From the NCBI GenBank assembly GCA_002898255.1, contig BEIE01000003.1, positions 1 to 64,000 of the forward strand: a stretch of 64,000 nucleotides of DNA, in the 5' to 3' direction. Every line of letters begins with the position of its first letter. Within the stretch, counting starts at the first letter, position 1. The notes beneath the pieces are model-generated. The model saw only the letters and a list, made by a program, of their open reading frames with translations, did not search any database and had not been told where the DNA came from. This stretch comes from a bacterium HR28. Its GTDB lineage: Bacteria; Chloroflexota; Chloroflexia; Thermomicrobiales; Thermomicrobiaceae. Position numbers and translations under genes: made by a program. This document shows, piece by piece, positions 23,420-62,133 of the stretch.

Positions 23420-23448
23420 TTGACAGCGGGAGCTGTGAGGGCTATAGT
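23420..23448 (+). promoter_or_regulatory. aroF promoter, TTGACA-N17-TATAGT
   Basis: TTGACA (23420-23425) and TATAGT (23443-23448) are separated by exactly 17 bases, which is close to the sigma-70 optimum. Transcription would start near 23455, only about four bases upstream of the leader-peptide ATG at 23459. No Shine-Dalgarno lies in that short space, so the leader peptide would be translated from a nearly leaderless transcript. Confidence 0.7.
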
Positions 23449-23458
23449 GATCAACGCT

Positions 23459-23551
23459 ATGGGTAGTGTGTCGCTTCAGCACCAGGTTTGGTTTGCGTAC
23501 TACTTTACCCCGCCGGCGTTGCTGGCGGGGCGCCGGGTGTTGAAGCGCTGA
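23459..23551 (+). CDS. Aromatic leader peptide of aroF
   Basis: This 30-residue frame contains the segment VWFAYYFTPPALLAGRRVLK. Trp11, Phe12, Tyr14, Tyr15 and Phe16 place five aromatic residues within six positions, exactly the codons that would sense tryptophan, phenylalanine and tyrosine. The two Pro codons that follow and the rest of the peptide lie over RNA that can form alternative helices. It ends with TGA 30 bases before an intrinsic terminator and 98 bases upstream of aroF. This is the arrangement of classical attenuation leaders. The sequence shows the frame, the codon cluster and the RNA structures; the regulatory outcome is inferred. Confidence 0.75.
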   Translation: MGSVSLQHQVWFAYYFTPPALLAGRRVLKR

Positions 23552-23583
23552 CCCCGTAGCCCGAAAAGCCAGTAACGCCGGCG
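23508..23583 (+). promoter_or_regulatory. Attenuator helix arms upstream of aroF
   Basis: CGCCGGCGTTGCTGGC (23511-23526), inside the leader frame, pairs with GCCAGTAACGCCGGCG (23568-23583) over 16 consecutive pairs with one G-U wobble. The 5' arm begins a few bases after the Tyr-Tyr-Phe codons. A competing local hairpin pairs CCCCGCC (23508-23514) with GGCGGGG (23524-23530). The 3' arm shares its last three bases with the foot of the downstream terminator stem. Forming the long helix would therefore remove three G-C pairs next to the U-run and weaken termination. Which state follows ribosome stalling cannot be settled from sequence alone. Confidence 0.65.
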
Positions 23584-23618
23584 AGCAGAGGTCGTCACCT
23601 CTGCTCGCTTCGTTTTAT
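23581..23618 (+). terminator. Intrinsic terminator of the aroF attenuator
   Basis: GCGAGCAGAGGT (23581-23592) and ACCTCTGCTCGC (23597-23608) form a 12-bp stem with a CGTC loop, followed by TTCGTTTTAT. It precedes the aroF start by about 30 bases and cannot be the end of any upstream gene, so it is a within-operon attenuator. The foot of the stem overlaps the 3' arm of the long-range helix. Confidence 0.85.
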
Positions 23619-23648
23619 GGAGAACCATAAGGGAAGGGAGCTGAGGCG

Positions 23649-24671
23649 ATGATTCTTCGGCTGCGGCCCGATGTTGATCCGCATCACCAGCAGGCACTGT
23701 TGGACGACTTACACCGTTGGGGTTTCACAGTCACGACACTGACGCGGGGCGGCCAACCGGTCTTTGCAGTGAATGGGCAGGGAATGCCGGCAGATGTTGC
23801 AGCGGAACTCGCAAGTTACCCGGGCGTCGAGGCAGTCGTGACTCCTTCTCAGCCATACCGTTTGGCGGCTCGCGCGAGTCGACCGCGAGGAACGATCGTA
23901 CGAGTTGGTGACGTTGTCATCGGAAGTCATGAGCCGGTTATCATCGCCGGGCCCTGCACGGTTGAGAATCGAGAGCAGCTGCTCCGTACTGCAGAAGCGG
24001 TGCGGGAAGCAGGTGCATCGTTACTGCGAGGGGGCGCATTCAAGCCACGAACTTCCCCATACAGCTTCCAAGGCCTCGGCGAGCGTGGCTTGGAACTCCT
24101 AGCGGAGGCACGGGAGCGGACCGGACTACCGATCGTGACGGAGGTCTTGGATACCGAGCAGGTCGATCTTGTCGCTCAATATGCAGACATGCTCCAGATT
24201 GGCAGCCGGAACATGATGAACTTCGCACTTCTGCGGAAGGTGGCGGCAACTGGGAAACCGGTTCTCCTGAAGCGGGGTTTTGCCGCCACCATTGAGGAAT
24301 GGCTGCTCGCTGCGGAATACCTCCTTGCTGGAGGGAACGATCAGGTGGTCCTCTGCGAGCGAGGGGTGCGGAGTTTCGAGCCAGCCACGCGATTCATGCT
24401 CGATCTCAATGCAGTCCCGCTGGTGCGCCAGTTGAGCCATCTGCCAGTGATTGTCGACCCGAGTCATGGGACGGGGCGGCGTGAACTGGTGCCTCCTATG
24501 TCGCTTGCAGCGATTGCTGCTGGAGCGCATGGCCTTCTCGTTGAGGTTCATGTCGAACCAGATGCCGCGCTCGTCGATGGTCGCCAGTCGATCGATCCCG
24601 CCACGCTTGCGAGCATCGTTCGGCGAGTGCGGGCGCTCAGCGAGCTCGCTGAGGAACTTGTGACTGCCTGA
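23649..24671 (+). CDS. aroF: 3-deoxy-7-phosphoheptulonate (DAHP) synthase, type I-beta
   Basis: DAHP synthase condenses phosphoenolpyruvate and erythrose 4-phosphate, the committed step of the shikimate pathway to aromatic amino acids. The N-terminal ~70 residues form the small ferredoxin-like domain typical of the I-beta class. The barrel follows with AGPCTVENREQ (metal Cys), GGAFKPRTSPYSFQG, QIGSRNMMNF, KRGFAATIEEW and VDPSHGTGRRE (metal His). VEVHVEPDAA follows. The 340-residue length is normal. The ATG at 23649 has AAGGGAGCTGAGGCG upstream. The upstream leader peptide and terminator provide transcriptional control. It ends one base before the convergent stop of the kinase-like gene. Confidence 0.95.
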   Translation: MILRLRPDVDPHHQQALLDDLHRWGFTVTTLTRGGQPVFAVNGQGMPADVAAELASYPGVEAVVTPSQPYRLAARASRPRGTIVRVGDVVIGSHEPVIIAGPCTVENREQLLRTAEAVREAGASLLRGGAFKPRTSPYSFQGLGERGLELLAEARERTGLPIVTEVLDTEQVDLVAQYADMLQIGSRNMMNFALLRKVAATGKPVLLKRGFAATIEEWLLAAEYLLAGGNDQVVLCERGVRSFEPATRFMLDLNAVPLVRQLSHLPVIVDPSHGTGRRELVPPMSLAAIAAGAHGLLVEVHVEPDAALVDGRQSIDPATLASIVRRVRALSELAEELVTA

Positions 24672-60733: not shown

Positions 60734-62133
60734 TCGAGAACCTGCGTGACGCGATCATCGATCTTGCGTATCTCGCCTGTGCGATTGTAATCATCCTTGG
60801 CCTCAAGCGGCTGAGTTCGCCGCGCACAGCGCGCTCCGGCAACCAACTCGTTGCGGCCGGACTCCTGGTTGCGGTTGCCGTGACATTACTCGATCCACAC
60901 ATTCATTGGCGACCCGCCAATATCGCGGTCATCCTTGTCGGTACCGTCGTGGGTGCCGCTGGGTCGATCTACTTGGCCCGCGTGGTTCCGATGACGGCCA
61001 TGCCACAGATGGTGGCGCTTTTCAATGGCATGGGCGGCGCAACTGCTGCACTGGTTGCGGTTGCAGAGTTTCAACGTTTCGTCGCCAGTGGCGCAGTGAC
61101 CAGCGGTGAGCGCGCATCCGTCGCCTTCGGAACCACCGTGGGAGCGATCGCTTTTACCGGGAGCGTGATCGCGTTCTTGAAACTGCAAGAGCTCATGACC
61201 GGGCGGCCGGTGCGCTTCCCGCTGCAGATTCCGGTCAATGTCGCGGTTGCGGCCGGGATCGTGGCAATGTGGATCTGGTTACTGGGGTTCGCTGGCTCGA
61301 CCCCTAGCGTCTGGATCATGTTTGGTCTGGCGCTCCTCTTTGGCATCTTGCTTGTGCTCCCCGTTGGCGGTGCCGATATGCCGGTAGTCATCTCGGTTCT
61401 GAACTCGATGACTGGCCTGGCAGCTGCCGCCGCGGGGTTTGTCCTTGAGAACCAGATCCTCGTTGTTGCGGGTGCGCTGGTGGGCGCTTCGGGTTCGCTG
61501 CTCACCATCTTGATGAGCCGCGCCATGAACCGCTCGCTTGCAAATGTGCTCTTCGGAGCGTACCGTGCCCGTGCCGCCGGGGCGGCCGTTGGTGAAGCCA
61601 AACCGATTCGCGAAACCACGGTCGACGATGCAGCAGTGCTTCTCGCCTATGCAAACCTTGTCATCATTGTTCCCGGCTATGGGCTGGCCGTGGCACAGGC
61701 GCAGCATGAACTCGCTGAACTGGCCAACGAACTTGAAAAGCGTGGCGTTGAGGTGAAGTTCGCAATCCATCCGGTCGCTGGTCGTATGCCTGGGCACATG
61801 AATGTGCTGTTGGCTGAAGCCAACATCCCCTATGACAAGTTGTACGAAATGGAGCAAATCAACGAGGAGTTCCAGCGCGCAGATGTCGCGCTTGTTGTGG
61901 GCGCGAATGATGTTGTCAATCCAGCGGCGCGGACGGATCCCTCCAGCCCCCTCTACGGCATGCCAATCCTCAACGCCGATCAGGCGAAGAACGTTATCGT
62001 GTTGAAGCGGAGCATGCGGCCAGGCTTTGCAGGTGTAGAGAACGAGCTCTTCCATATGCCGCAGACGCGCATGCTGTTCGGAGACGCAAAGGAAACGCTC
62101 AAGCGTCTCGTGGAAGCGGTGAAAACTGTCTGA
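60730..62133 (+). CDS. pntB: NAD(P) transhydrogenase subunit beta
   Basis: PntB (467 residues) has about nine hydrophobic helices followed by an NADP-binding domain. VIIVPGYGLAVAQAQHELAELANEL, KFAIHPVAGRMPGHMNVLLAEA, VALVVGANDVVNPAARTDPSSP and LKRSMRPGFAGVENELF match the family. The enzyme uses the proton gradient to make NADPH from NADH. A terminator-like hairpin follows 18 bases after its stop. Confidence 0.95.
   Translation: MIENLRDAIIDLAYLACAIVIILGLKRLSSPRTARSGNQLVAAGLLVAVAVTLLDPHIHWRPANIAVILVGTVVGAAGSIYLARVVPMTAMPQMVALFNGMGGATAALVAVAEFQRFVASGAVTSGERASVAFGTTVGAIAFTGSVIAFLKLQELMTGRPVRFPLQIPVNVAVAAGIVAMWIWLLGFAGSTPSVWIMFGLALLFGILLVLPVGGADMPVVISVLNSMTGLAAAAAGFVLENQILVVAGALVGASGSLLTILMSRAMNRSLANVLFGAYRARAAGAAVGEAKPIRETTVDDAAVLLAYANLVIIVPGYGLAVAQAQHELAELANELEKRGVEVKFAIHPVAGRMPGHMNVLLAEANIPYDKLYEMEQINEEFQRADVALVVGANDVVNPAARTDPSSPLYGMPILNADQAKNVIVLKRSMRPGFAGVENELFHMPQTRMLFGDAKETLKRLVEAVKTV

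Follow-up and report, generated by a model that had tools for sequence, protein, structure and literature searches.

A probable leader-peptide attenuator upstream of aroF in bacterium HR28 belongs to an apparently undescribed RNA switch family of the Chloroflexota

The enterobacterial attenuators (thrL, trpL, pheL, hisL, and leuL) combine a short leader ORF containing codons for the pathway product with a 1:2 helix, an antiterminator, and an intrinsic terminator that precedes the structural gene. Outside the Proteobacteria, classical leader-peptide attenuation, involving Trp only, was described for actinobacterial trp attenuators, whose complementary triples share an antiterminator/terminator segment (PMC1262725). 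A survey published in 2010 added the Firmicutes to the Proteobacteria and Actinobacteria, from which alone leader-peptide systems were then known (PMC2965389). For aroF itself, an aromatic (FYF) leader peptide was reported upstream of the gene in Corynebacterium glutamicum (PMC4046766), and another study describes the uORFC-13-1 motif upstream of aroF in Acholeplasma, comprising a uORF with Phe codons and a terminator (PMC8632094). Our full-text literature search returned no account of leader-peptide attenuation in Chloroflexota; subscription papers lay mostly outside its scope, and an earlier report is possible.

The region upstream of aroF in the window analyzed here (the whole 64,000-nt stretch of contig BEIE01000003.1 from bacterium HR28) contains the same set of parts as the enterobacterial leaders, and probably functions as a ribosome-mediated transcription attenuator of aroF, responding to the charging of the tRNAs for Trp, Phe, and Tyr. 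It differs from the enterobacterial systems in that its antiterminator abuts the terminator, whereas theirs sequesters the 5′ arm of the terminator, and also in having either an additional hairpin (A) or a leader stop codon within the antiterminator arm, a probably leaderless leader, and no Rfam leader match. It likewise differs from the actinobacterial trp attenuators with their shared segment (PMC1262725). The C. glutamicum aroF leader (PMC4046766), from a different phylum, is alike in its aromatic codons; the likeness is by description, and the paper states no relation to the present structure. The motif uORFC-13-1 (PMC8632094), also from a different phylum and also likened by description, shares the uORF and terminator before aroF, with only Phe codons noted. 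The features of the locus are as follows.

23420–23448, plus strand: sigma-70-type promoter, TTGACA-17-TATAGT (motif match; kept in relatives)
23459–23551, plus strand: predicted leader peptide ORF of 30 aa with regulatory codons W11, F12, Y14, Y15, and F16 (found at 19/19 family loci with the same aroF copy)
23472–23486, plus strand: 5′ arm of helix 1:2 (inverted repeat; arms coevolve between genera)
23533–23547, plus strand: 3′ arm of helix 1:2 (inverted repeat; arms coevolve between genera)
23508–23530, plus strand: local hairpin A (23508–23517/23521–23530), 10 bp, loop GUU, −20.5 kcal/mol, predicted to sequester the 5′ arm of B
23511–23526, plus strand: 5′ arm of helix B, the putative antiterminator (inverted repeat, covariation)
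23568–23583, plus strand: 3′ arm of helix B, ending at the base of T (inverted repeat, covariation, B-T spacing)
23581–23617, plus strand: intrinsic terminator T, GCGAGCAGAGGU-CGUC-ACCUCUGCUCGC then UUCGUUUUA (inverted repeat, alignment)
23649–24671, plus strand: aroF, encoding a B. subtilis-type DAHP synthase of 340 aa, the regulated gene (PF00793, TIGR01361)

Most of these parts had been named in the initial annotation. The TTGACA-N17-TATAGT promoter described there matches the consensus at 11 of 12 positions and is the sole hit in 600 bp (0.2 expected), and the 30-residue leader with Trp-Phe-x-Tyr-Tyr-Phe codons translates as MGSVSLQHQVWFAYYFTPPALLAGRRVLKR, with the aromatic run WFAYYF. The claimed 16-bp helix, competing local hairpin, and 12-bp terminator were all located as inverted repeats (B, A, and T, respectively). 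Helix B spans 16 nt, with 15 Watson-Crick pairs and one G·U, while T has a perfect 12-nt stem (23581–23592/23597–23608) and a 4-nt loop; their overlap is exactly the three bases that had been claimed (23581–23583). The tail reported as T-rich is indeed present, in the form of an imperfect U-tract (UUCGUUUUAU), and the domain matches of the downstream gene agree with its assignment as a DAHP synthase. An intrinsic terminator thus lies between the leader and the structural gene. Helix 1:2 is an additional helix that was absent from the earlier list. As a whole, the region folds with z = −6.5 relative to dinucleotide shuffles, none of 200 shuffles being as good.

The source genome has two aroF copies. 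At all 19 family loci of the first copy, representing six genera, aroF is preceded by a leader in which (T/S)PPA comes after an aromatic run, together with B, T, and the coevolving 1:2 helix; the promoter is also conserved in relatives. The aromatic identity is constant and its order is variable (WFAYYF, WYYFYF, WYYVYF, and FYYWF), and the predicted leader is a short ORF with end-product codons in a conserved frame. In the family alignment, helix B has two-sided changes at three pairs and helix A is retained at 94% of cells. The arms of 1:2 average −37.0 kcal/mol with their own partner and −25.3 kcal/mol with partners from other genera, a difference that holds in five of six genera. This conservation across genera rules out chance as the source of the parts. 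The initial annotation had read the region as an aromatic attenuator, with conservation of the leader frame and of the stems, including compensatory changes, set beforehand as the condition for that reading, and such conservation is what the family displays. No leader was found at the second-copy aroF loci in the family. In the source genome, this second copy (contig 1, 907,863–908,855) has neither leader nor attenuator and appears 3′ of a chorismate-mutase-like gene.

A covariance model built from B and T was used for searches of further genomes, and matched in 52 of the 158 genomes searched within the class and, at a cut-off of E up to 0.1 where the weakest rows may be chance matches, in 121 of 400 genomes sampled from Chloroflexota. 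No model match was obtained in 30 genomes of other phyla reached through loci, in a search run without a positive control, and among 80 AroF loci from many phyla, strong matches were confined to the two closest Chloroflexota loci. AroF was the first downstream frame (BLAST) at 61 of the 91 loci examined. When 90 members are aligned, several pair types are seen at almost every position of B (e.g., GC 30, UA 26, and CG 20), up to four per pair, in an alignment that was fitted to the covariance model, such that the pair counts lean towards it; eight of the nine T pairs are formed in 88–90 of the 90 members. On these matches, the element is widespread in Chloroflexota (121/400 genomes) and not unusual there, as it had seemed in the initial annotation; known or predicted aromatic leaders of aroF exist in Corynebacterium (PMC4046766) and Acholeplasma (PMC8632094) as well. 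The RNA switch family, with members whose codons match the downstream pathway, is apparently undescribed.

A separate feature of the 90 members is that the T stem GCAGAGG/CCUCUGC and its G-interrupted tail (UUUUUUGUUU in most relatives) show more conservation than pairing requires, and do so across pathways, with no explanatory partner found. Retention of the GCAGAGG arm for pairing with the Tyr-Phe codons was rejected, since shuffled arms pair with these codons no less well (39 members, mean p 0.57). The idea that GCAGAGG..CCUCUGC is a genome-wide terminator sequence was also unsupported, since CAGAGG-N3-8-CCTCTG occurs at two sites only, T and one inside a gene.

Codon swaps across members act as natural experiments on the same scaffold, and the downstream genes of the swapped copies were confirmed by Pfam and NCBIfam. 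Copies before asd have Thr-rich leaders (MVTTTTPAG in relatives and TRTTTGTTATR in the source genome), and those before aspartate kinase genes have the leader TITSITTM. VYYYR is found in one of two tyrS copies, SSYY in the leader of a chorismate mutase copy, and FYYF in that of a second type of DAHP synthase, while pheS copies have a single Phe codon adjoining the helix, a point that counts against attenuation. Judged from sequence comparison, these swaps are the strongest evidence that sensing acts on the leader codons. The source genome showed nothing clear when searched for a Trp leader upstream of trpE. Among individual copies, the pheS members L082–L086 retain the aroF-like ACUUUAGCCCGCCGG and yet read SHHVHFSPPA, which may indicate a recent copy or a weak sensor. 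In the source genome, on contig 5 at ~60,920–61,056, the Thr-rich leader MNAVRSATRTTTGTTATRCAGVRSGSP, a B helix of the same type, and a terminator precede asd.

Folding was considered with an assumed ribosome footprint reaching 18 nt in the 5′ direction and 12 nt in the 3′ direction from the first base of the A-site codon, and under this assumption the ribosome position sets alternative upstream helices (1:2 or the antiterminator). In the window, the naked RNA folds into 1:2, A, and T, and a ribosome on W11, F12, Y14, or Y15 gives B at 0.80–0.94 and no 1:2; for a stall at F16, B reaches only 0.03. The last aromatic codon usually lies 7 nt before B, and all stalls except the last one or two leave the B 5′ arm free. 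Each of the 74 aromatic members has at least one stall position at which 75% or more of this arm is free, and in 72 of them this is true of more than half of the stalls. In one group, the leader stop codon is 5–8 nt into the B 5′ arm, such that a terminating ribosome covers the whole arm; in the other, it is mostly 28–41 nt further on, and hairpin A is stronger there (Spearman −0.58 for hairpin energy against stop position, uncorrected for relatedness). The T core forms in every state, with T at 0.82–0.85 in most stalled states containing B at equilibrium, and antitermination must therefore have a kinetic or steric basis. When the ribosome occupies the stop codon of the window, equilibrium favors B and not A; termination from that state requires A to survive as a kinetic trap. 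Hairpin A is at 1.0 in the intermediate preceding synthesis of the B 3′ arm.

We propose that, when all three tRNAs are charged, the ribosome would reach the stop codon, whereupon hairpin A, and then 1:2 after release, would hold the B 5′ arm and T would terminate transcription. With Trp, Phe, or Tyr in short supply, the ribosome would stall at W11, F12, Y14, or Y15, disrupting 1:2 and freeing all or most of the B 5′ arm, such that B could form. Helix B would end at the base of T, taking three basal pairs in the window and merely abutting T in most relatives, and would in this position prevent closure of the terminator hairpin from reaching the RNA-DNA hybrid, allowing aroF to be transcribed. 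Without a stall, B would be prevented by hairpin A in Thermomicrobium, or by the ribosome on the in-arm stop codon in other lineages. On physical reasoning, a duplex against the base of a terminator hairpin should impede closure of the final hairpin pairs within the RNA exit channel. Attenuation is well supported, while the direction of the response and the action of abutment as a block to termination are what we infer. More tentatively, and with somewhat less than even confidence, we suggest a single modular Chloroflexota attenuator scaffold, serving aroF, chorismate mutase, tyrS, pheS, asd, and aspartate kinase genes, in which the antiterminator blocks the terminator end to end at its base, without base-pair competition, and the hairpin is kept from closing at RNA polymerase. 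The family presents leader-peptide attenuation as a modular control layer across a phylum, and if abutment is the switch, the family would offer a clean test of terminator-hairpin closure at RNA polymerase, apart from strand competition.

The abutment, like the parts, their coevolution, and the match of codons to pathway, is read from the sequence and its comparison among members. The B end is 0 nt from the T core in 42 of 89 members and 0–3 nt from it in 76, with overlap in 11, and the span of B varies from 44 to 84 nt while the B-T distance stays narrow, a spacing partly selected by the finding model, which permits only small B-T inserts. These gaps were measured by contiguous-helix counting, the free folds of the intermediate being noisy, with weak pairs extending B. 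An unlikely alternative is the classic 2:3/3:4 competition, in which B, or B with further pairs, would sequester the T 5′ arm and T could not form. It would account for the three-base overlap in the window, the three to four bases in asd members, and the seven in one tyrS member, and for the minimum-energy fold of RNA ending just before the T 3′ arm, which often extends B weakly into the T 5′ arm through the aromatic codons. However, B stays outside the T core in 78 of 89 members, and the T 5′ arm finds an upstream partner no better than shuffled arms do (90 members, median p 0.58, 1% below 0.05). In the same test, E. coli leaders gave p 0.004 for thr and p 0.01 for phe, and the contrast rests on these two, trp, his, and leu being not significant; the test was used instead of free folds of the E. 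coli leaders, which yielded the 1:2 state and were unusable as an overlap yardstick. Pairing between the codons and T, as noted above for the 39 members, likewise fails to exceed that of shuffled arms. In the window, loss of the shared basal pairs changes T from −22.4 to −13.7 kcal/mol. Mutual exclusion of the classic trp type, with the antiterminator sequestering the terminator 5′ arm, was thus not found, and the T core still forms. The lack of a partner for the T 5′ arm beyond shuffles, together with the B-T abutment, points to a family without plain sequestration of the terminator arm, and bears out family-wide the departure from the 2:3/3:4 model that had been suspected from the single locus.

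The compatibility of B and T, which stack end to end, and the presence of T in both naked and stalled folds would also suit a role for B in promoting termination, with a stalled ribosome preventing B and starvation either turning the gene off or acting via an unseen third structure. We regard this as improbable, since stalls free the B 5′ arm, a ribosome at the stop codon masks half or more of that arm in 23 of 74 members, and a fall in biosynthesis on starvation, as would follow if B then formed and promoted termination, is opposite in sign to what biosynthetic and tRNA-synthetase genes call for. Conservation of the (T/S)PPALL(V/A)G motif at the amino-acid level in the family could alternatively reflect a nascent chain that arrests the ribosome; this is very improbable, as the same stretch is the B 5′ arm and its third codon positions are conserved too, leaders of other lineages stop at SPPA while the arm continues beyond the stop, the order of the aromatic residues is variable, and the scaffold also carries Thr or Tyr leaders. 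That the element is some other known RNA device (a T-box, a riboswitch, or an amino-acid leader family of Rfam) and the ORF incidental is scarcely credible, there being no supporting evidence and, in an Rfam scan of the whole window that included amino-acid leader families and T-box, no family at gathering score, while the ORF, its codons, and the codon-to-B distance are all conserved.

Translation of the attenuator leader is, from its sequence context, probably leaderless, because the predicted transcription start is only a few bases ahead of its ATG. In the window, the start codon lies 10 nt past the −10 box (23443–23461), and there is no Shine-Dalgarno sequence. The distance from the −10 end to the leader ATG is 6–10 nt in about half of 88 members, whose start sites were chosen by script and are wrong in some cases, and a second group of members has long spacers of 47–73 nt between the −10 box and the start. 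It is worth noting that outer pairs of the 1:2 helix, 23456–23464 with 23550–23559 (GCUAUGGGU with ACCCCGUAGC), would make the leader start codon inaccessible in the absence of a ribosome.
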